A stretch of 29,236 nucleotides of DNA from a virus. The stretch lies in the IMG/VR virus record IMGVR_UViG_3300006990_000115, positions 1 through 29,236 of that record; one strand, 5' to 3'. This document shows positions 2-21,225 of this stretch, one piece after another. A program made the position numbers and the translations under genes. Position 1 is the stretch's first letter, and the number at the start of each line of letters is the position of its first letter. The notes beneath the pieces were generated by a model. That model was not told the origin of the DNA. It did no database searches and saw nothing but the letters and a program-made list of their open reading frames with translations.

Positions 2-547
2 AAGATAGCAGCAAACGCTGTTGGGTCAAGTGAGATTGCAAATAATGCAGTAACATCTACACAATTATCAAGTGCAGCACTTGATAGTAAAAGCATGTCA
101 GGGAATATAGGATTTAGTGGAGCTAATATCAATATTGGTAGTGGCACTAGTGCTATACTTGAGGTAAAAGGTAAGTTAGGTATTCAAGATGCAAACCCAG
201 TTCAAAAACTTCACATAGACGAAGTAGCTGGTATGGATGTAGGCACAGGAACTTCATCTTCAACAGCACAATTTACACTAGATAGTTTTACAGCAGCTAC
301 ATTTAGAACTGCTAAGTATACAGTATCTGTAACTAACTCTACAGATGGAGACTATCATGCTATAGAAATATTCTTATTTCACGATGGAACAACAGTTTAT
401 TTAACACAGTACGCTTCTATATTTGATAATGGTGCTCAAGCATCTTTTGACGCAGATATAAGTGGCGGTAATGTAAGATTAAGAGTAACACCAGCAAGTG
501 GTGATACAATGGCTTATAAATATATAAGAACAACAATAGAGGTATAA
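2..547 (+). CDS. Tail fibre-like structural protein, 5' end outside window
   Basis: The frame is open from base 2, so this is the C-terminal 181 codons of a longer gene; the ATG at 95 is internal. The visible start is rich in Ala, Asn and Ser (it includes the string EIANNAVTSTQLSSAALD), which is typical of the shaft of phage tail fibres. It is followed by a compact domain with alternating hydrophobic and polar residues (YTVSVTNSTDGDYHAIEIFL, then GGNVRLRVTPASGDTMAYKY) that looks like a beta-rich tip or C-terminal fibre domain. No catalytic motif is visible. The next structural gene follows after one base, and its GAGG ribosome site (539-542) lies inside this gene's last codons, so the two are translationally linked. 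Tail fibre or another tail appendage is inferred from composition and neighbours. Confidence 0.7.
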   Translation, partial: KIAANAVGSSEIANNAVTSTQLSSAALDSKSMSGNIGFSGANINIGSGTSAILEVKGKLGIQDANPVQKLHIDEVAGMDVGTGTSSSTAQFTLDSFTAATFRTAKYTVSVTNSTDGDYHAIEIFLFHDGTTVYLTQYASIFDNGAQASFDADISGGNVRLRVTPASGDTMAYKYIRTTIEV

Positions 548-548
548 A

Positions 549-770
549 ATGGGACAAAAATTAGATTTTAATATCGAAGATTCAGGATTAAAGATTGATG
601 GTGCTGATGCCATCGATGCAAGTAGAAACTTTGAGGGTGCAGTAGCCACAGGAAAAATTACTAGTGGTACTATGGCTTCGGCAAGATTGCCAAGAACTAT
701 AACGACTACCGCTCCTACAAATACTGCTGGTACTGTGGATGGTCATATATGGTTCGTATATTCGAGTTAA
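549..770 (+). CDS. Small tail/structural protein
   Basis: A 73-residue protein with a well-placed GAGG site six bases before its ATG. The middle (GAVATGKITSGTMASARLP) is low-complexity, of the kind found in phage fibre shafts. The end (TNTAGTVDGHIWFVYSS) resembles the short C-terminal segments of marine phage structural proteins. It sits between a fibre-like gene and the giant repeat protein, separated from the latter by three bases. It has no transmembrane segment or signal peptide. It is most likely a small virion or fibre-associated protein; the exact role cannot be told from sequence. Confidence 0.6.
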   Translation: MGQKLDFNIEDSGLKIDGADAIDASRNFEGAVATGKITSGTMASARLPRTITTTAPTNTAGTVDGHIWFVYSS

Positions 771-773
771 GAC

Positions 774-3700
774 ATGGCAATATATGTTAATGATAGTGGA
801 ACGCTTCGTCAAATTTCCTTTCTGGCAATTAATGATAATGGTACGCTTAGAAGAATCAATGAAGTCTATGTAAACGATAGCGGAAGTCTAGAAGGCCCGT
901 TTACGGTTACACACGAGACGTCTAGAAATACTGCTACTAGTACTAGTACTATTAGTGGATTACAAGATACTTCTTTCTCTACAACTACTACATTTAACAC
1001 AACTCAAAGTACTCTTACTACTTTTGATACTAGTAGAACAACAACATTCAACACAGGCAACGTTACTGAAACTAGTAGAACAACAGCATTTGATACCACA
1101 ACAGCTTATACAACTACAACTGCATTCACTACTACAACAACGTACAATACAACTCAAAGTACAACAACTGCATTTAATACTACTACTGCATTTACAACAA
1201 CGACAACGTTCAATACAACACAGAGTACTACAACAGCTTTTAATACCACAACAGCGTATACAACTACAACTACGTTTAATACTACACAAGCTACAACAAC
1301 TGCATTTAATACTACTACTGCATTTACAACAACGACAACATACAATACAAGTCAGAGTACAACAACTGCATTTAATACAACTACTAACTTTACGACTGTA
1401 ACAACATATAATACAAGTCAAAGTACTACTACCGCATTTACAACTACAACAGCTTTTAGTACTGTAACAACATTTAATACTTCACAAGGTACAACTACAG
1501 CATTTACAACAACAACTGCTTTTAGTACTGTAACAACATTTAATACTACACAAAGTACTACTACTGCATTTACTACAACAACCACGTTCAACACAACGAC
1601 GACGTTTAATACAACACAAAGTACTACAACAGCTTTTACAACTACGACAGCGTTTAATACTACCACGACTTTTAATACAAGTCAAAGTACTACTACTACA
1701 TTTACAACAACAACAGCTTTTAATACGACAACAACTTTTAATACAAGTCATAGTACAACAACAGCGTATACAACAACAACAACGTTTAATACTACTACAA
1801 CCTTTAATACAAGTCAAAGTACAACAACAGCATTTACAACAACAACCGCTTTTAGTACAACAACAGTATTTAATACAACTCAAAGCACAGTTACAGCATA
1901 TAATACTACAACTACTTATACTACATCATATGATACAGTAATTAGTACAAGTAGAAATACATCTTTTGCAACGAACACTGCTAGAAGTACTAATACTACA
2001 CAGTCTACAGGCTACAATACTACCTTTACTACAAGTACTGCATATATAGATAATACACTTAGGTTATCAAATACTGCTAGAAGCACAAATACTTCTCAGT
2101 CTACTTCATTTACTACTACATTTAGTACAACAACAGCATATCAAGATAATACATCCTTTGCCACAAGTAGAACAACTACATTTATTACAAATACTACATT
2201 TGCTACTAACACTACGTTTACTACTTCAACAGCATATCAAGATAATACATCATTTGCTACAAGTAGAACTACTACTTATATTACAAATACAACCTTTGGA
2301 ACAAATACTACATTTACTACTGCAACAGCATACCAAGACAACACATCGTTTGCTACAAGTAGAAACACCACATTTATTACAAATACTACATTTGCTACTA
2401 ACACTACATTCAGTACTACAACAGCATACCAAGACAATACATCGTTTGCTACAAGTAGAAATACTACATTTATAACAGCAACAGCATACCAAGACAATAC
2501 ATCGTTTGCTACAAGTAGAAATACTACATTTATAACAGCAACAGCATACCAAGACAATACATCGTTTGCTACAAGTAGAAATACTACGTTTGCGACAAAT
2601 ACTGCTTATGTAGATAACACATCATTTATAACAGCATATATAGATAACACTACATTTATAACAGCTTATATAGATAATACAAGCTTTGCTACTAATACTG
2701 CTAGAAATACAAATACAAGTAGAATTACTGCTTATGTAGATAATACAACGTTTGCAACTTCAACTTCATATACTACAACACAGGCAACAAATACAAGTCG
2801 AAGTACTGGATTTACAAACTCAACTGCGTATAATACTTCACAAGCAACAAATACAAGTAGGTCAACAGGATTTACAAATAGTACTAATACTTCTAGAAAT
2901 ACGAATACATCGAGAAGTACCTCATTTGCTACAAATACTTCTAGAAATACGAATACAAGTAGGTCAACAGCATTTACAAATATAACAACTAGAGCAACAG
3001 GTGCAGGTTTTCCTACGTCTAGATTTACAGGATATCCAGGCATAAGAATTACTACTTACATAACAATATTTGAAGAGGAGAATGAGGACAGTGAAGGGGA
3101 AGTATATTATGAAACAATCACAGAGAATACTTCAAGAACTACAAGTATTATACAACAAGTAATTACTTCTTACTTTACGAGTACTAGTTTCAATACTTCC
3201 TTTAGTACTAATACATCTAGAAACACAGCGTTTACTAATAGTACAGGCTTTACAAATAATACAGCTAGAATAACAGCATTTACTAATAGTACAGGCTTTA
3301 CAAATAATACAAATACAAGTAGGATTACTGCTTACATAGACAATACAAGTTTTGGTACAAGTAGAAATACGAATACAAGTAGAATCACTGCTTACATAGA
3401 CAATACAAGTTTTGGTACAAGTAGAAATACTAACACTACTCAATCTACAAATACAAGTAGATCAACAAGTTTTACAAACAGTACTTCATTTACAAATAAT
3501 ACTTCTCAAGCAACAAATACAAGTAGAAATACTACACAAGCAACAAATACGAGTAGAAGTACATCACAAGCAACAAATACAAGTAGAAGTACTAATACTA
3601 CACAATCAACAAGTTATAACACAGTCAGAATATCTAATACAAGTAGGAACACAAATACTACACAATCAACAAGTTATAACACAGTAAGATTATCTAATAC

Positions 3701-5381
3701 AAGTAGAAATACTAACACAACTCAATCAACAAGTTATAACACAGTTAGAATATCTAATACTGCTAGAAGTACTAATACAGTTCAGAGTACTAATACTACA
3801 CAAGGAACTAATACTACACAATCAACAAGCTATAACACAGTAAGATTATCTAATACAAGTAGAAATACTAATACAACCCAAGGTACAAATACCACACAAG
3901 GTACTAATACTTCTCAATCAACAAGTTATAACACATTAAGATTATCAAATACTGCTAGAAGTACTAATACAGTACAAAGTACAAACACTACACAAGGCAC
4001 TAATACAAGTCAGTCAACTACGTACAATACATTAAGATTATCAAATACTGCTAGAAGTACTAATACAAGTCAGTCTACAACTAGAACTACTACGTTTATT
4101 ACAAGTACAGCATATGAAGATAACACTTCAGTATCAACAAACACTGCTAGAAGTACGAACACTACTCAAGCTACTACTAGAAATACTACGTTTACAACAA
4201 GTACTGCTTATGTAGATAATACTTCACAGTCTACAAGTTACGAGACAGCATATATCACAAGTAGAATTAGTTCAAGATCTACAGGTACAAGTAGAAATAC
4301 TACAACTACCTTTGCTACTTCACAAGGTACAATTACTACAAGATCGACGGCTTCAAGTAGAGATACTACTACAGTATTTAATACAGCTAGAGCCTCACTA
4401 ACTAGTAGATCGACTGCATCAAGTAGAGACACTTCAACAGTATATAATACTTCTAAAAATACAGGTACACAAAGAAGTACAGCATCTAGTAGAGATACTT
4501 CTACAGTGTTTAATACAACTAAGACTACAGGCACTCAAAGAAGTACAGCATCTAGTAGAGATACTACAACAACATTTAATACTTCAAGACTAAGCTTAAC
4601 AAGTAGAGGCACTATTACATCTAGAGATACTACTACTACATTTGCTACCACACAAGGTACAATTACAACTAGAAGTACAGCATCTAGTAGAACTACTACA
4701 TCAGTATTCAATACAACTCAATCTACTATTACTAGCAGAGGTACAGCATCAAGTAGAACTACTGTATCAGTATTTAATACAAACACTACTACAGGTACAC
4801 AAAGAAGTACAGCATCTAGTAGAGATACTTCTACAGTGTTTAATACAACTACAAGTACTGCTTCAAGTAGAAGTACTGGTACAAGTAAAACTACTACGTC
4901 CACTTTCTTAACAGACAGAGGAACGGGATCAAGTAGATCAACTCTTACAGATAGAGGAACAACAACTACGTTTGCGACCACACAAGGTACGGTCACAACT
5001 AGAACGACTGGAACGAGTAAAAGTACTACAACCACTTTTAATACTCAAAATGTCACAGGTTCAAGTAGGTCAACAGGGTCTTCCAGAAGTACAGAAACTT
5101 CAAGAACGACAGCGTTTAATACAACTACAGGATATGAAACTAGTAGAACAACAACATTTGCTACAGGCAGAACTACTACAACTACTTTCAATACCACAAG
5201 AACTACAGACACAACGATCGCAACAGATCATTTAACCACAACAGTATTTAATACATCTACTGTTGTATATGAAAGAACAACAGCCTCACAGGTGGGAACT
5301 TTATTCGACACAGAAGTTTCCAGTCTAGACGACTACGGATATTCCTTCTGGGATGGCTCACAATGGAGTGAAAGCAACTAA
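774..5381 (+). CDS. Giant Thr/Ser/Asn-rich repeat protein, probable tail fibre or adhesin
   Basis: 1535 residues. The N-terminus has three short copies of a VNDSGTLR-type motif (residues about 3-42). Then about 1450 residues are built almost only from Thr, Ser, Asn, Ala, Phe, Tyr, Arg, Gln and Ile. In the segments I aligned, bulky residues (F, Y, R, Q, occasionally K) recur every 4 or 6 residues, always an even number, and the residue two places after each is usually Thr or Ser. This gives a strict one-face/other-face alternation expected of beta-strands. Unit length is about 22 residues in the first and last thirds (spacing 6-6-4-6) and 20 in the middle. A less repetitive acidic island lies near residues 765-785 (FEEENEDSEGE). 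The last 40 residues (ending WDGSQWSESN) are non-repetitive and may be a tip or trimerisation segment. There is no signal peptide. Thr codons are freely mixed (ACA/ACT/ACG/ACC), so most repeats are old and kept at protein level. It lies in the tail gene block, hence the fibre/adhesin call; its function is inferred. Confidence 0.7.
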   Translation: MAIYVNDSGTLRQISFLAINDNGTLRRINEVYVNDSGSLEGPFTVTHETSRNTATSTSTISGLQDTSFSTTTTFNTTQSTLTTFDTSRTTTFNTGNVTETSRTTAFDTTTAYTTTTAFTTTTTYNTTQSTTTAFNTTTAFTTTTTFNTTQSTTTAFNTTTAYTTTTTFNTTQATTTAFNTTTAFTTTTTYNTSQSTTTAFNTTTNFTTVTTYNTSQSTTTAFTTTTAFSTVTTFNTSQGTTTAFTTTTAFSTVTTFNTTQSTTTAFTTTTTFNTTTTFNTTQSTTTAFTTTTAFNTTTTFNTSQSTTTTFTTTTAFNTTTTFNTSHSTTTAYTTTTTFNTTTTFNTSQSTTTAFTTTTAFSTTTVFNTTQSTVTAYNTTTTYTTSYDTVISTSRNTSFATNTARSTNTTQSTGYNTTFTTSTAYIDNTLRLSNTARSTNTSQSTSFTTTFSTTTAYQDNTSFATSRTTTFITNTTFATNTTFTTSTAYQDNTSFATSRTTTYITNTTFGTNTTFTTATAYQDNTSFATSRNTTFITNTTFATNTTFSTTTAYQDNTSFATSRNTTFITATAYQDNTSFATSRNTTFITATAYQDNTSFATSRNTTFATNTAYVDNTSFITAYIDNTTFITAYIDNTSFATNTARNTNTSRITAYVDNTTFATSTSYTTTQATNTSRSTGFTNSTAYNTSQATNTSRSTGFTNSTNTSRNTNTSRSTSFATNTSRNTNTSRSTAFTNITTRATGAGFPTSRFTGYPGIRITTYITIFEEENEDSEGEVYYETITENTSRTTSIIQQVITSYFTSTSFNTSFSTNTSRNTAFTNSTGFTNNTARITAFTNSTGFTNNTNTSRITAYIDNTSFGTSRNTNTSRITAYIDNTSFGTSRNTNTTQSTNTSRSTSFTNSTSFTNNTSQATNTSRNTTQATNTSRSTSQATNTSRSTNTTQSTSYNTVRISNTSRNTNTTQSTSYNTVRLSNTSRNTNTTQSTSYNTVRISNTARSTNTVQSTNTTQGTNTTQSTSYNTVRLSNTSRNTNTTQGTNTTQGTNTSQSTSYNTLRLSNTARSTNTVQSTNTTQGTNTSQSTTYNTLRLSNTARSTNTSQSTTRTTTFITSTAYEDNTSVSTNTARSTNTTQATTRNTTFTTSTAYVDNTSQSTSYETAYITSRISSRSTGTSRNTTTTFATSQGTITTRSTASSRDTTTVFNTARASLTSRSTASSRDTSTVYNTSKNTGTQRSTASSRDTSTVFNTTKTTGTQRSTASSRDTTTTFNTSRLSLTSRGTITSRDTTTTFATTQGTITTRSTASSRTTTSVFNTTQSTITSRGTASSRTTVSVFNTNTTTGTQRSTASSRDTSTVFNTTTSTASSRSTGTSKTTTSTFLTDRGTGSSRSTLTDRGTTTTFATTQGTVTTRTTGTSKSTTTTFNTQNVTGSSRSTGSSRSTETSRTTAFNTTTGYETSRTTTFATGRTTTTTFNTTRTTDTTIATDHLTTTVFNTSTVVYERTTASQVGTLFDTEVSSLDDYGYSFWDGSQWSESN
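2419..2587 (+). repeat. Perfect 60-bp tandem repeat, about 2.8 copies
   Basis: Bases 2461-2520 and 2521-2580 are identical, and perfect period-60 identity extends from 2419 to 2587. Each unit encodes 20 residues of the repeat protein (TAYQDNTSFATSRNTTFITA). Identity at synonymous positions, unlike most of the gene, points to a recent duplication. Confidence 0.95.
3312..3430 (+). repeat. Near-perfect 60-bp tandem duplication
   Basis: Two adjacent 60-base units differ at only two positions and encode the TSRITAYIDNTSFGTSRNTN segment of the repeat protein. The period is the same as the array at 2419-2587. Confidence 0.9.
3601..3780 (+). repeat. Imperfect 60-bp repeats, three units
   Basis: Three consecutive 60-base units begin with CAATCAACAAGTTATAACAC and diverge mainly towards their ends. 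They encode NTTQSTSYNTVRISNTSRNT-type 20-residue units. Related, less regular units continue to about 4080. Confidence 0.85.
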
Positions 5382-5383
5382 GA

Positions 5384-5548
5384 ATGAAAAGCGAAGGCGG
5401 ATTTGAAAAAGAAACAAAGATAACACCAGAATACGTTAACAATAAGATGGAAAGTATGATGCATGCTTTGTATGATTCAATTGAAGAATCAGAAAAGAGA
5501 ATGAGAAATTTAGAGAAACAAATATTTGACCTAAAAAATGGCACTTAA
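5384..5548 (+). CDS. Small coiled-coil-like protein of unknown function
   Basis: A 54-residue frame begins two bases after the stop of the repeat protein and ends 11 bases inside the next gene. The protein starts MKSEGGFEKETKITPEYV. From about residue 20 it is a continuous charged helix with hydrophobics in heptad-like spacing (MESMMHALYDSIEESEKRM, then RNLEKQIFDL), suggesting a short coiled coil. The ribosome site is weak, so translation may be coupled to the upstream stop. Its place directly after a fibre gene would suit a small fibre-assembly or structural accessory protein, but that is inference from position only. Confidence 0.6.
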   Translation: MKSEGGFEKETKITPEYVNNKMESMMHALYDSIEESEKRMRNLEKQIFDLKNGT

Positions 5549-6437
5549 AAGAAAAGGCAAACCTTTGGAGGCTATGACGATTAAGGAATCTTTGGGAGAT
5601 ATTCCTACTCATTTTATGAAGTCAGGGTCTTCGTATAGACCTATAAAAGATCTAAATACTCTAGAAGCTTTTAAGGAAAGAATTATTGATGACTCTCATA
5701 GAGGTGCAAAATTTCAGTACGATATATGGTTTAATACTAATGCTCTCAATACAGTACACAAATGGTTGTATACAGATTTTTTAGGAAACGGTATTTTAAT
5801 AAGAGTTTCTAGTATTAAAATTAATGATAGGCTAATGGAGTCAATTGTTAAAGACCCTTACTTAGAGATAGACCATGAAAGGTGTGAAAAAATTGTAAAT
5901 AACTTTCATAATAAATATACTCTAGGTGTAAATGAAAAGTACCATGATAAAGTAATATTTTTACCAGGTACTAACTTAATTACAAAAGGTAGATGTGTAC
6001 ATTGGGGCAGAGTAAGACGTGCTGTTGATAACGGATTTGTAATTAAACCACACCCAATCACTCAGAAAGTGTGGATAGCAAAACTGAAAAAAGACTACGG
6101 GGAAGAAAATGTACTCGATAAAAAGGTAGGAGGTTTTGAACTTCTTGCAAACTGCAAAGAGTGTGCAACAATGCCTAATAGCGAAATGGGATTGATGGCA
6201 CTCATGCTAGACAAACAATTAAGTATGGTATCACATACAAAAGAGGATAGAGAAAAGTCTCTCTTAACTTATGAAAGTATCTACCATGCAATAGCTAACA
6301 CAAACGCTAAAGAATCTCTAATGAAGATATTCTCAGCAAAAAACTCAGGCATAATCTTTAGTTTTGATGAAGATGCAGAACAACGAAAAGAGCTGTTCCT
6401 GAATAACTTTTGGAACATGAAGGTAAAAAACGGATGA
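5538..6437 (+). CDS. Possible GT-B-type glycosyltransferase (capsule/teichoic-acid transferase-like)
   Basis: 299 residues, starting 11 bases before the end of the small upstream gene. I do not recognise a family with certainty. Two features suggest a GT-B fold: a VIKPHPITQ segment at residues 168-176, like the KPHP motif of capsule and glycerophosphate transferases, and a following NSEMGLMALMLDKQLSMVS stretch (214-232), like the nucleotide-sugar loop where a Ser/Glu pair precedes a helix and a 'gkPvi'-type strand. No membrane segment is seen. It ends in a 4-base overlap (ATGA) with the next gene, so the two are probably a coupled pair. It might modify host-surface or virion glycans. Alternative: an uncharacterised tail protein. 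Confidence 0.45.
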   Translation: MALKRKGKPLEAMTIKESLGDIPTHFMKSGSSYRPIKDLNTLEAFKERIIDDSHRGAKFQYDIWFNTNALNTVHKWLYTDFLGNGILIRVSSIKINDRLMESIVKDPYLEIDHERCEKIVNNFHNKYTLGVNEKYHDKVIFLPGTNLITKGRCVHWGRVRRAVDNGFVIKPHPITQKVWIAKLKKDYGEENVLDKKVGGFELLANCKECATMPNSEMGLMALMLDKQLSMVSHTKEDREKSLLTYESIYHAIANTNAKESLMKIFSAKNSGIIFSFDEDAEQRKELFLNNFWNMKVKNG

Positions 6438-7378
6438 TAGAACTAGTAACAACATATAAGAAAGATTGGACATTTTTCACTTTAGCTTCTCTACTGAATA
6501 AGTCAGGATTTCGTCTGCACTTATTTATACACAAAGAAGACTGGATAGAAAAAGAAGTGTCTTGGATGATAAATAACTTTGAAAACATTAAGATTTATGA
6601 ATCGTGGTGGAGAGAAGACCATATATCAAGAATGACTTTTCATTTAAAAGACCATTGGAAAGATAAAGGTGGACTTGCTAAGAGAATGATTGTATGGTAT
6701 GGTAATAGAATATTCAATAGACCAATTGATGAAGGCGATATACCACCAGCAGAGTTCTTCAAATCTTCACTCTCATTTTTAAGTAGAGACTTAGTATTCG
6801 ATAAAAGTCATTTGGCAAATTATTATGGCATACTTGGTATAGCTACAAAATCTCATCAAAGCATACCATTAGTTGATAAATCAATTGTGGTACTTAACTA
6901 TGACAGATTGTGTGAGTTTCATGATAAAGATTTATTCTTCATGAATCAAAAGATGCCAGTAAGTAATGGTAATAGACCTGCAGTAGATACTAAATTAATA
7001 GCGTGTAAAGATCTTGCTTTCTTTGAAGCACTTACATTCTATAATCATTCATGGTCGCCTTTGTATGTAAATGGAAAGATTGATACATTAGTAGAGCTAG
7101 ATGCTATAGGAGCAAAAGAACTATTAGACTATAATGTAATGTTAAGAAAGTCTTGGAGTATAGATGTTCAGCACAGATTTTTAGCAAAAGATTATCTAAA
7201 CTTACAGACAGGCATACAACTATCAGTGCCTTGGGATTGTTATACAAGACTTATAGACCAGATACCACTAAACTTTAGAAACGCTAGATTGAACGAAGTG
7301 TTACTAACAAAAACTGCAAAGCAGAAAGCAACCACAGGAAAATTAGTAGAAAGGGGATTTTATTTAGGAAAGGTCTAA
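6434..7378 (+). CDS. Unrecognised protein paired with the GT-B-like gene
   Basis: 314 residues from the ATG at 6434, chosen because it forms the classic ATGA overlap with the upstream stop; an in-frame ATG at 6410 would add eight residues and enlarge the overlap. The beginning (MIELVTTYKKDWTFFTLASL) looks like the first strand and helix of a Rossmann-like or glycosyltransferase domain. The rest is rich in aromatic and basic residues with no motif I can name (for instance WWREDHISRMTFHLKDHW near residue 60). No signal peptide or membrane helix. It is the last + strand gene; its stop overlaps the 3' end of the convergent GT29-like gene by 15 bases. Function unknown; glycan-related by context only. 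Confidence 0.55.
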   Translation: MIELVTTYKKDWTFFTLASLLNKSGFRLHLFIHKEDWIEKEVSWMINNFENIKIYESWWREDHISRMTFHLKDHWKDKGGLAKRMIVWYGNRIFNRPIDEGDIPPAEFFKSSLSFLSRDLVFDKSHLANYYGILGIATKSHQSIPLVDKSIVVLNYDRLCEFHDKDLFFMNQKMPVSNGNRPAVDTKLIACKDLAFFEALTFYNHSWSPLYVNGKIDTLVELDAIGAKELLDYNVMLRKSWSIDVQHRFLAKDYLNLQTGIQLSVPWDCYTRLIDQIPLNFRNARLNEVLLTKTAKQKATTGKLVERGFYLGKV

Positions 7379-8023
7379 GTAACCCTCATTTAAGTCAGTC
7401 AAAATTTTCCAATCAATTATTCCTCTCTCATATAAATCAAGCACAATCTCTTTTTCCTTTGGGGAATGGGGATTGCTGTTGATTGTGCTAACAGGAATAT
7501 GCCAACTGTATGGATTGTTCGCACCTGCGATAATTGGAAGTGCCTTAGAAAAGAAATCAAATCCTACCAATGTAAGAGTAGAAAAATTTGTTTTCTGTAA
7601 AAAATATTGAATTGCAATGAAACCTGCTGAAGGCCTTGCACCTGCAGCTACATGGTTCTCCGCTCCAACTAACTTGAATATCGACACAAGCTCTTTGTCC
7701 GAAAACATATCAACATATTTAAAACGTATGTCATGTCTATCATCCGCATCGTCTCCCAGATGCACACGAGAACGATTGAATAGTACTTCACAATCTTTTG
7801 GAAACTTATTTCTCTTTTTGTATCTTAAAAATCCAGTAACCCAAATATCTGTACGCTCACCAATATTATCAGAATTAGTAGAGTCAGGTATTCCATTACC
7901 AAATCTTACAACTGTATCGAAGTTATCTATGTACTCTCCAAGATCATACTGCAGTAACTCAACAGAGTTTCCAACAAGTACTATTGATTTGTTTTCGGTA
8001 AGCTTTCGTAAATTTTGTTCCAT
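7364..8023 (-). CDS. GT29 (sialyltransferase)-like glycosyltransferase
   Basis: 219 residues. Family 29 transferases move sialic acid from CMP-sialate to glycans and carry two nucleotide-binding sialylmotifs. Here residues 14-43 (SIVLVGNSVELL, then DLGEYIDNFDTVVRFGNG) fit the L motif, with its GNS and 'Id-fD-VvRf' core. Residues 132-157 (PSAGFIAIQYFL, then LTLVGFDFF) fit the S motif. RTDIWV (57-62) is also typical of bacterial and phage members. The protein is shorter than animal enzymes and has no membrane anchor. It starts 43 bases inside the 3' end of the GT8-like gene and is the last gene of the - strand operon, converging on the fibre/GT-B block. Acceptor and donor cannot be told from sequence; sialic acid or a related acidic sugar is inferred from the family. 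Confidence 0.7.
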   Translation of the reverse strand: MEQNLRKLTENKSIVLVGNSVELLQYDLGEYIDNFDTVVRFGNGIPDSTNSDNIGERTDIWVTGFLRYKKRNKFPKDCEVLFNRSRVHLGDDADDRHDIRFKYVDMFSDKELVSIFKLVGAENHVAAGARPSAGFIAIQYFLQKTNFSTLTLVGFDFFSKALPIIAGANNPYSWHIPVSTINSNPHSPKEKEIVLDLYERGIIDWKILTDLNEGYLDLS

Positions 8024-17943: not shown

Positions 17944-19220
17944 AGTATATTTACCTCGTAATCTTGTTTCATATAGTAGCCCAATCTTGCATTTGCTTGA
18001 CGAGCTGCCGTTTTTCCTTTGAGATGAATGTCTACAACTACAGGTTGTTGTTTACCTTCTTTATCTCTTATTACTCTACCTATTAGCTGTGTTAGTAAAG
18101 GTTCATTATTTATTGGTGTACCCAGCACTAAACAACTTAGATCGTTTAATGATATACCTTCAGAAAAGATTGATTGAGTACCAAAGAGTATGTTCTTATC
18201 CTCTTTGATTTGATTCATTACATCTTCTCTTTCAGTAAACTCCATATCTCCTGTTATGGAAACTGCTTTATCGCCGCACAATCCTGCACAACTTTTTAAG
18301 AAAGCTACTCTATCAGACACTACTAATACTTTATGCCCTTCTGCAGCATACTTTGCAGCAATCATACTTACACTATGTACATATTCTTCATTATATGCAA
18401 GATGATTTATTCGTTCTGCCCAAGGTGTAAACGCTCCATCTAGGAAACGTATATCGGACTTAATTACATGAATCTTAGGAATCATATAGTTTTCTTTTGG
18501 TGGTATATGTACATCATTACCGAAGTAATCTCTGAATACCACATGTCGTCCGTCCTTTCTTTCTAGTGTTCCTGATAAGCCTATCTTATTCAAAGCTGGC
18601 ATTTCATCTACTATTCTAGTAAAAGTTGGACTACTGACGTGATGCATTTCATCTAAAATCACAGTTCCGAATTCCTGTTTGATGTCGTCCATCTTGCGGT
18701 ATAAACTCTGAATATTCCCAATAACTATTGGAGACTTAGTATCAAAGCTACCTGATCCGATTCTGCCTGCCTTGATTCCAAAGCAGTTTTCTACGTCTTT
18801 TTCCCACTGATTTCGTAGGGTGGTTGTATGAGTAACAACCAATGTTTTCTGACCTAGCTTCTTCGCTATAGCTAAAGCCGTTATTGTCTTTCCCCAACTT
18901 ACCCAAGCGTTAACTATACCATTGCCTTGGATTGCGTCATGTACCCTTTGCTGGCTTGGTCGTAAAGTAAACTTGAAGTCAGGAAGTTCTACAGGCGAGG
19001 TTACGCGCTTGTCGATTATTTCGTAATCATCTGGTATTAAATCCGTTCTTCCCACAGGTATAGAAATTAAACCTTCTTTTATCCATCGTACTGTTTTAAA
19101 TACGATAGGTGGATCTTGTGGCATCCTAGGGGCTATCGTGTAAGTTAGCTCCTTTTCGATGTCCGAACTTGTTTTTGTATCTACTGAGAGGTAGATTCTG
19201 TTTGATAATACTGCCTTCAT
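17940..19220 (-). CDS. UvsW-like SF2 helicase
   Basis: 426 residues from the ATG at 19218-19220, chosen because it makes an ATGA overlap with the AsnB stop; an ATG at 19256 would add 12 residues. Motifs in order: a 'tLRPSQQRVHDAI' Q-like segment; motif I NAWVSWGKTITALA (103-116), where the usual first Gly of Walker A is Ser-Trp, as in T4 UvsW-type loops; VTHTTTLRNQW (motif Ia); DEMHH (190-194, motif II); LSGTLER (motif III); and a C-terminal RecA domain with GTQSIFSEGISL and QLIGRVIRDKEG (motifs V and VI). UvsW-type helicases migrate branched DNA and resolve R-loops late in infection. The ~90-residue N-terminus before the Q segment would be the DNA-binding part. Confidence 0.88.
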   Translation of the reverse strand: MKAVLSNRIYLSVDTKTSSDIEKELTYTIAPRMPQDPPIVFKTVRWIKEGLISIPVGRTDLIPDDYEIIDKRVTSPVELPDFKFTLRPSQQRVHDAIQGNGIVNAWVSWGKTITALAIAKKLGQKTLVVTHTTTLRNQWEKDVENCFGIKAGRIGSGSFDTKSPIVIGNIQSLYRKMDDIKQEFGTVILDEMHHVSSPTFTRIVDEMPALNKIGLSGTLERKDGRHVVFRDYFGNDVHIPPKENYMIPKIHVIKSDIRFLDGAFTPWAERINHLAYNEEYVHSVSMIAAKYAAEGHKVLVVSDRVAFLKSCAGLCGDKAVSITGDMEFTEREDVMNQIKEDKNILFGTQSIFSEGISLNDLSCLVLGTPINNEPLLTQLIGRVIRDKEGKQQPVVVDIHLKGKTAARQANARLGYYMKQDYEVNIL

Positions 19221-20725
19221 AGATTCGAGATAAACTCCAAATCTTGTAGCTTCCATAGTCTAGTCAGCTCTTGATGATTATTGTCCCAGGGCGATGACCA
19301 CCCTGTTTTGTTTCTTCTATCACGAACATGCTTTGGCAAATAATCTGCCATAACTTCTCTTAATAAATATTTATATGTTCCAATCTGATGGTCGGGGTGT
19401 GTTTTGAACTTTACTCCACTTTCTATACTTAGCATGTATCGTACAAAACTTTGGGAAAGAAACACTGGTCTGCTTTCCATTCCCCACATACCACAGGTTT
19501 GATCAGTTGTGAGTATATTCTGTTCTGATGTACTCACTAAGTCATACCAAAGAGCATTGTTTTTATAGTCTGTTTTACTAAATATCTGCCTTGGAATCCA
19601 CTTTTGTTTTGAGGCATAGTGATCTATTGTTTCTTTATTGTACTCATCATTATAATATCTATCATGATGTTGATAGCCTGTAAATAATTCATCCGCACTA
19701 TCTCCAGTTAGAACTACTTTACACCCGTCACGGCTTGCTGCTTTGCATAAAGAGTACCTAGGTGCTGTTCTATTTCTATCCACCCAAGGAAAGTGAGTAT
19801 GTGCTAACCACATTCTATGATAATGATGTACGGAACTATAGTCTAGTTTTACAACTTTATATGGCACTCCCCACTCTTGACAAGTTTTGATTGCCATCTT
19901 TGCTTCTTTACGAAATCCATCATGGTCATGCACAAGCCCACCTTCTTTTCCATAATCACAAATGTAAGCGGTTAAATCTATATTTGTATCTTTTAGTATG
20001 CCTAAGGCACAAGTGCTGTCTAAACCTCCGCTAAGAAATATAGCAGTTTTCTGTTTAGTATTCGCTACTTTCTTTATGCTAGTTATTAAGTTTGTTTTGA
20101 ATTGGTTTATATTTATATTTGAGTTACCAATTGTAAAGTTGCCCCATAAGTTTCTTCTTTCAATATTAAGAGTTTCTAAGTTTAATTCCCATATTTGTCC
20201 AGGAGCTACTTTAATTATATTAGTATACGGACTAGCGTTGCCTAACCATAGGGGATTATTCATATACATATGATGAGTCTTAGTATTATTCTGTTTAAAA
20301 TGTATACTTCTTAGACTTGTACTAACTGTTAAATCTTTACCCTTTTTGTATATCCACAAAGGTTTTGCACCAAAATGATCTCTTGCTATAATTAATTTGT
20401 TTTTCTTTTTATTATAATACACAAAAGAACCGTGCCAATCTGTATTCGCTATAAATCTATATCCAAATAAGTCTAATCCATTTCCTAAAAAGGCAGTATC
20501 ATTATCAATATTAGAATCATACATCTCTCCATTAAAAACTAAGATGTTGCCCTTCTTAGTTTTGAATGGTTGTATTTGATGTGTTCCATTTACGTCTAAC
20601 AATACATGACCAAAAGCTAACTTTTCGTCTTGCCAGTAGGAATGGTCAGTTGGACCTCTATGCTTTTGTCGCATAGTCATATGTTCTATATCATTTTTTC
20701 GTGTTGTTACTACGAATCCGCACAT
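19217..20725 (-). CDS. Glutamine-hydrolysing asparagine synthase-like amidotransferase
   Basis: 502 residues. The N-terminal Ntn glutaminase domain begins MCGFVV with the Cys2 nucleophile and carries HRGPTD (22-27) and VFNGEMYD (63-70). The C-terminal synthetase domain has the PP-loop LSGGLDS (231-237) and GDSADELFTGY (341-351), both diagnostic. In cells AsnB makes asparagine from aspartate, ATP and glutamine. Related phage and surface-sugar enzymes amidate other acids, so the real substrate here is uncertain. It overlaps the oxygenase gene upstream by 16 bases and the UvsW-like helicase by four. It could relieve asparagine limits for phage proteins (the repeat protein is very Asn-rich) or modify a glycan. 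Confidence 0.9.
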   Translation of the reverse strand: MCGFVVTTRKNDIEHMTMRQKHRGPTDHSYWQDEKLAFGHVLLDVNGTHQIQPFKTKKGNILVFNGEMYDSNIDNDTAFLGNGLDLFGYRFIANTDWHGSFVYYNKKKNKLIIARDHFGAKPLWIYKKGKDLTVSTSLRSIHFKQNNTKTHHMYMNNPLWLGNASPYTNIIKVAPGQIWELNLETLNIERRNLWGNFTIGNSNININQFKTNLITSIKKVANTKQKTAIFLSGGLDSTCALGILKDTNIDLTAYICDYGKEGGLVHDHDGFRKEAKMAIKTCQEWGVPYKVVKLDYSSVHHYHRMWLAHTHFPWVDRNRTAPRYSLCKAASRDGCKVVLTGDSADELFTGYQHHDRYYNDEYNKETIDHYASKQKWIPRQIFSKTDYKNNALWYDLVSTSEQNILTTDQTCGMWGMESRPVFLSQSFVRYMLSIESGVKFKTHPDHQIGTYKYLLREVMADYLPKHVRDRRNKTGWSSPWDNNHQELTRLWKLQDLEFISNL

Positions 20726-21225
20726 TTTCTTTGTTCCTTATTTTGTAGCCACATGACTAAACTTTTCTTTTGTCCACTCCCTAAAGGCGTAACTCTATGC
20801 ATTCTATTACTAGCATAGAATACTGCAGCTTTATATGGTAAGTGTATCTGTTCATCTTTTATTTGAAACTCTGCTCCTGTATATTCATGGTCTTTTGATA
20901 AATTTACAGATACAGATACTGTTGCAATATTAGGTTCTGCATGCCACTCAAGTCCTTGTCCTGGAGTATGATAGTGCATTATATGACCAAAAGTGTATTT
21001 TTGAAAATATAAAGTCTCTGCAAATTCTTTTTCTGAAAGTTGTTTTACTTCATCCATAAACTTGTAATGACTTCTAAGAGTGTAATAATTTCTATCTACT
21101 TTCTCATTCTTTTTACCTGTAACTAGGCTTACTTCTAGACTATCATTATTACTTGCATAGTCACAGTACGTTCTGAAAAAGTTAGCTTGGTCTTCCGTAA
21201 AGAAGTTTGATATAATCATTATCAT
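20710..21225 (-). CDS. 2-oxoglutarate/Fe(II)-dependent oxygenase
   Basis: 171 residues, the size of single-domain prolyl-hydroxylase-type enzymes. The double-stranded beta-helix core is recognisable: GLEWHAEPN gives H95 and E97 (an HxE variant of the usual HxD), followed by VSVSVNLSKDHEYTGAEF. MHRVTPLGSG gives the distal His (H143), and a Lys pair at 153-154 sits where a basic residue normally grips 2-oxoglutarate. There are two nearby Met starts (residues 1 and 3). The ATG overlaps the 41-residue gene upstream by four bases. Such phage enzymes may hydroxylate proteins or modified nucleotides; the substrate cannot be inferred. Confidence 0.75.
   Translation of the reverse strand: MIMIISNFFTEDQANFFRTYCDYASNNDSLEVSLVTGKKNEKVDRNYYTLRSHYKFMDEVKQLSEKEFAETLYFQKYTFGHIMHYHTPGQGLEWHAEPNIATVSVSVNLSKDHEYTGAEFQIKDEQIHLPYKAAVFYASNRMHRVTPLGSGQKKSLVMWLQNKEQRKCADS

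Follow-up and report, generated by a model that had tools for sequence, protein, structure and literature searches.

What kind of structure is encoded by a viral gene whose 1535-residue product contains 576 Thr (38%)? The gene lies in the window analysed here, the whole 29,236-nucleotide stretch of IMG/VR record IMGVR_UViG_3300006990_000115, and a first-pass annotation had noticed, in segments aligned by eye, that its bulky residues (F, Y, R, Q, K) are spaced by 4 or 6 and never by odd numbers. Between residues 45 and 1495, the 276 bulky residues were found to be split 261:15 by parity, with spacings of 4 (91 times) and 6 (146 times) dominating between neighbours. "Never" was slightly too strong, as 29 of 275 adjacent spacings are odd; their sources are the Q of YQDN (six sites), the Q of TQRST/TQN (four sites), R51 and the tip at residues 751-801. 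The autocorrelation of bulky positions is nevertheless negative at all odd lags up to 49, so that odd spacings are not as common as even ones, and the further observation that Thr or Ser stands two positions after nearly every bulky residue was borne out for 239 of the 276.

Relatives were collected from IMG/VR by querying with the N-terminal 68 residues, which gave 80 of them, and further scans added more; a query resembling the conserved C-terminal end (C-cap, Table 1) recovered 142 loci. The set of complete distinct relatives in this family from uncultured phages comprised 75, later 83, proteins of 668-1621 residues, with 38 clusters and 59 different lengths. All complete proteins found in the C-cap and mid-arm scans had the same N- and C-caps. 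Two scans of bacterial and archaeal genome contigs returned no relative, and none was found in annotated phage records by tblastn with the first 80 residues or the whole protein, a search in which the low-complexity filter masks the arms. Under a three-state phase model, of the bulky residues in the coherent segments of 62 relatives, 10272 kept the phase and 312 did not, while shuffled proteins gave zero coherent segments. In many relatives a single phase switch occurred at the exact middle of the chain, which led us to search for symmetry about the centre.

Every centre c was tried, and bulky positions at i were correlated with those at 2c-i. For the window protein (identical to that of L002), the best centre was c = 775, with a mirror correlation of r = 0.87 across 712 residues; the second-best centre reached 0.50. 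Correlations were 0.8-0.95 in most relatives and 0.4-0.7 in more divergent ones, and the best centre was near the midpoint in nearly all of them, divergent ones included. The presence or absence of a phase switch follows from 2c being odd or even, and the arrangement of 22-residue units at both ends and 20-residue units mid-protein follows from the mirror symmetry. The even spacing, which the annotation had already seen to survive across these repeat types, extends to the relatives, as the phase counts above show.

Table 1. Features of the window around the Thr-rich gene (residue numbers refer to the 1535-residue protein)
Feature	Positions	Strand	Remarks
Upstream tail-fibre-like protein, C-terminal part	2..547	+	weak PHROG tail/baseplate matches; complete in relatives, ~1000-1290 aa
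73-aa ORF between fibre gene and Thr-rich gene	549..770	+	
Thr-rich gene (putative hairpin protein)	774..5381	+	1535 aa; mirror centre at residue 775 (i + j = 1550)
N-cap, residues 1-62	774..959	+	conserved in all relatives; opens with three tandem ~14-aa YVNDSGTLRxI motifs
Arm 1, residues 63-744	960..3005	+	outgoing beta-strand (predicted); phase-coherent, mirror-complementary to arm 2
Tip/turn, residues 745-806	3006..3191	+	regular pairing ends; acidic EEENEDSEGE around residue 775
Arm 2, residues 807-1493	3192..5252	+	returning beta-strand (predicted); phase-coherent, mirror-complementary to arm 1
C-cap, residues 1494-1535	5253..5381	+	conserved; ends ERTTASQVGTLFDTEVSSLDDYGYSFWDGSQWSESN
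Downstream 299-aa protein	5538..6437	+	phrog_26179 family; conserved neighbour

The residues placed opposite each other at this register are complementary. In the window protein, 122 of the 123 inter-arm bulky pairs set an aromatic residue against R/Q/K/H and one is a like pair; 20,000 label shuffles gave a mean of 70 complementary pairs and a maximum of 88, and at most 61 were obtained when the arms were slid against each other. Bulky-face pairs at the mirror register of 20 relatives comprised 1579 aromatic:polar (R/Q/K/H), 0 aromatic:aromatic, 24 polar:polar, 17 aromatic:Thr, 2 polar:Thr, 2111 Thr:Thr and 619 Thr:other (mostly S/N/D) pairs. At fourteen other offsets in the same proteins, like pairs and aromatic:Thr pairs are abundant and the code vanishes. 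Phe is partnered by Arg, Gln or Lys, Tyr by Arg or rarely Gln, and Thr by Thr, Ser, Asn or Asp. An open relative of more than 3065 residues (L043) has 222 aromatic:polar and no like pairs. The mirror centre of L043/L125 lies at 1561.5, from which a full length of about 3108 residues is expected for this sequence, itself open at >3065. None of 308 other ORFs with enough residues exceeded a mirror z of 3.7, versus 11.0 for the Thr-rich protein; when arm 2 was shuffled in 20-100-residue blocks, z reached at most 8.2, and when it was reversed, 4.8. The side chains at i and 2c-i thus match as they should in an antiparallel hairpin, as judged by sequence complementarity.

If a pairing code sets the register, the two arms should be able to gain or lose length only together. 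The best centre by pair score was at the midpoint +7.0, 7.5, 8.0 or 8.5 residues in 75 of 75 complete relatives, then in 82 of 83, an offset that is constant because the two caps differ in length. The sole complete exception, the 845-aa protein of L258:7422, has its best centre at the midpoint -0.5, with 19 aromatic:polar and 0 like pairs. Indels were read from nucleotide alignments, in which their placement inside repeats is approximate. Mirror-paired indels were observed between L041 and L077 (32/32 residues), L039 and L040 (10/10), L006 and L014 (20/20), L010 and L012 (16/16 and 28/28) and L027 and L070 (~40/40). In L054/L055 and L001/L002 the indels do not balance cleanly in the nucleotide alignment, and an unpaired 20-residue difference was seen in L026/L027 and in L059/L060. 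Past its unpaired 20-aa deletion, the register of L026 moves by exactly -20 and pairing continues. These two unpaired differences could be either assembly collapse or real intermediates of paired-indel evolution; L026 and L027 are otherwise identical in DNA, and theirs is possibly an assembly collapse. In one subfamily (L046, L060, L065 and L072), arm 1 is broken at about residues 410-590 by a non-regular interruption, possibly a kink or knob, after which the register is shifted by +2 to +6 and pairing resumes; some divergent relatives likewise have interruptions or weaker pairing. Nonsynonymous/synonymous differences per site were 0.11-0.34 in ten of eleven relative pairs and 0.72 in L039/L040, and across the eleven pairs 772 aromatic:polar pairs were kept and 9 broken.

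At the centre the pairing stops. Across relatives, the paired fraction is 0.21 within 10 residues of the centre versus 0.77 beyond 200 residues, and Pro (0.1 to 2.5%), Glu (1.2 to 8.0%) and Gly (2.9 to 6.2%) are all enriched near the centre. An acidic DPExG-like turn motif (e.g. FDPExGT) was detected with a loose search pattern in 21 of 38 clusters. A central turn of this kind is what an antiparallel hairpin calls for. At the other end of the arms, the N-cap, matched by phrog_13729 over residues 3-43 (E=5e-7), is likely the anchor to the virion, and the C-cap is predicted to lie beside it at the fibre base. Weak tblastn matches also showed N-cap-like starts in two cultured phages, Serratia phage 2050HW and Pectobacterium phage ZF40, in small proteins whose genes adjoin annotated tail-fibre genes; these proteins do not have Thr-rich arms and were rejected as family members. 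A match in Cyanophage PSS2 was judged not meaningful.

The sequences themselves show the mirror complementarity, its constant centre, indels that come in pairs, and caps conserved among the relatives. Since the N-terminal half is complementary to the C-terminal half in the antiparallel sense, a single hairpin running out and back is to be expected, and we consider it very probable that the protein is a giant single-chain antiparallel beta-hairpin fibre of a large tailed phage, anchored by both ends. The chain would depart from the N-terminal anchor, continue for ~680 residues as one unbroken beta-strand, turn at residue ~775 and come back as a second strand to the C-terminal anchor next to the first. 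The two strands would pair with each other, antiparallel and in register over their full length, like a zip. On one face, each aromatic residue would be opposite Arg, Gln or Lys, in stacking or cation-pi contacts, and Thr opposite Thr, Ser, Asn or Asp; the opposite face would carry small residues. With ~680-700 residue pairs at 0.33-0.34 nm per residue, the fibre would be roughly 230-240 nm long, and that of the longest relative up to ~500 nm. The variable turn would be presented at the fibre tip, from where it may contact the host and bind a receptor. An isolated two-stranded ribbon of this length would be unusual, so oligomerisation, whatever the number of chains and the packing face, would probably be needed; several hairpins could pack parallel to each other. 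The very long beta fibre with one bulky/Thr face that had been proposed from the spacing is thus retained, but the antiparallel complementarity of the two halves had been missed. More generally, it is probable that two strands of 300-1500 residues find their common register through a near-digital code, in which F pairs with R/Q/K, Y with R and T with T/S/N/D, and that the resulting single-chain hairpin fibres, of at most ~0.5 micrometre, evolve in length through paired changes of the arms.

Structure prediction lends weak support to this model. AlphaFold2 folded the central 270 aa of L012 into one long antiparallel hairpin (strands 89-133/137-182 and 3-39/232-268) with index sums of 270-271, exactly the mirror prediction, at a pLDDT of 38 (~60 near the turn). 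For the full 668-aa protein of L077, the model could not be interpreted (pLDDT 31).

The same sequence symmetry would be expected of an antiparallel homodimer or higher polymer, in which i pairs with 1550-i of another chain to form rods capped at both ends, and there too the N- and C-caps, of different chains, would meet. Such an assembly does not need a central break, yet pairing drops at the centre and turn residues, often DPExG, appear there across clusters, which favours a hairpin turn over a dimer. Caps at both ends would also suit tail attachment poorly, and the AlphaFold2 hairpin, although of low confidence, is monomeric; we regard the homodimer as unlikely. A beta-solenoid with TxT ladders, suggested in the first-pass annotation, or a parallel trimeric beta-fibre would fit the Thr-x-Thr arrays, the even spacing and the tandem 22/20-residue units. 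Insect and bacterial TxT ice-binding beta-solenoids carry such arrays on a flat beta face, but they are parallel coils in which the neighbours are i and i+period, whereas in the Thr-rich protein they are i and 2c-i. Contacts between i and i+period would here be like-with-like, and no translation register gives complementarity (best parallel i, i+k register, z 4.9 versus 11.0 for the mirror), so neither fold can supply the organising contact; stacking of i on i+period as a specific contact was not found. The midpoint centre and the mirror-paired indels would be left unexplained as well, and these folds are highly unlikely.

Could the symmetry arise without pairing of protein strands, as a side effect of duplicated repeats or of mRNA base pairing? 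Nucleotide complementarity is indeed highest of all offsets at the mirror register (46%, with G-U, against a mean of 32%), and the central 904 nt fold better than shuffles (z -2.65). However, the remaining 54% of positions are unpaired, stems at the mirror register are mostly of 1-4 bp, and the fold predicted for the central 904 nt differs from the long hairpin; mRNA pairing was rejected as the cause of the mirror. In addition, C stands against C in Thr:Thr codons, base complementarity is incomplete for Phe:Gln and Tyr:Arg, and the signal is lost when arms are block-shuffled or reversed. We therefore give very little credence to an origin of this kind. The other alternative raised at the outset, a disordered mucin-like Thr/Ser linker, would agree with the low complexity, the 38% Thr and the low AlphaFold2 confidence; it has no need of parity, complementarity, a conserved register or paired indels, and it is contradicted by the strict complementarity together with the paired indels and the purifying selection seen in ten of the eleven relative pairs. 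We consider it extremely unlikely.

The suggestion that the fibre belongs to an undescribed family has so far held. PHROGs and Pfam profiles gave no match to the whole protein, the N-cap alone being matched; a PDB sequence search returned only Crov588 (E=0.007, in a low-complexity stretch), and nothing for the N-cap. No description of such a protein was found in the open-access papers searched. Judged against Pfam, PHROGs, PDB sequences and open-access papers, no such fold was found. The tail proteins of LtfC-bearing cyanophage and pelagiphage loci (L098-L103) have at most ~19% Thr and do not carry the mirror code. Designed beta-hairpin peptides, which are short and synthetic, use cross-strand aromatic-Arg/Lys pairs, so that an aromatic faces a cationic or amide side chain as in our protein, whose code differs in being genetically maintained over hundreds of residue pairs. 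Protruding antiparallel beta-hairpins are also known in fibre systems, where chaperones of phage fibres (T5, K1F, Alteromonas phage A5 gp9) carry them as "tentacles", the longest modelled in one study being ~88 A (PMC10579305); the hairpin predicted here would be about 25 times longer and has the pair code in addition. If correct, our model describes a new way of building a fibre, from one chain folded once, with its register set by a side-chain code that is readable in the sequence, like base pairing. It would then predict, with no structure needed, which residues touch at 700 positions, beta-fibres of chosen length could be designed on this template, and the evolutionary question would be how an indel in one arm acquires its counterpart at the mirror position of the other.

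The gene sits in a tail-fibre gene cluster. In a 105-kb relative, it is preceded by genes for an LtfC-like protein (L-shaped fibre assembly), a 523-aa tail-fibre-like protein, a 110-aa protein and a 999-aa tail fibre, an order repeated in other relatives; the 999-aa protein, a complete relative of the protein upstream in the window, matches phrog_892 tail fibre with E=5e-105. The best matches of the window DNA polymerase, at ~46%, are Pantoea phage AAS21, Erwinia phage KEY and Vibrio phage Pontus, and the phage would be a large one with a T5-like (Demerecviridae) polymerase, its kinship being judged by this polymerase. The tail-fibre neighbours and the T5-like polymerase make a tail fibre the likely role of the protein. 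In T5, the L-shaped tail fibre pb1 forms a homotrimer whose C-terminal domain binds the receptor (PMC4690869); in T4 long fibres gp37 is at the receptor end (PMC5537660). The protein resembles pb1 and trimeric fibres such as T4 gp34/gp37 in being, by prediction, a long thin beta-structured fibre, and shares with the pb1 system the LtfC-like and tail-fibre genes of its cluster, but differs from these fibres in having both termini predicted at the base and the middle of the chain at the tip.

The same cluster of the 105-kb relative also encodes a 1546-aa tail-fibre-like protein (L083:14604-19244, minus strand) that ends in a Hint-like domain of the self-splicing type (Hom_end_hint 8.6e-7, PT-HINT 1.1e-4, both below the Pfam cut-off). 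Close to the Thr-rich gene in the window, positions 7364-8023 (minus strand) show a weak match to glycosyltransferase family 29 (sialyltransferase; 24.7 bits). Further along, positions 19217-21225 (minus strand) encode a PAPS-reductase/QueC-like protein and a 2OG-Fe(II) oxygenase, genes of the host-takeover type.
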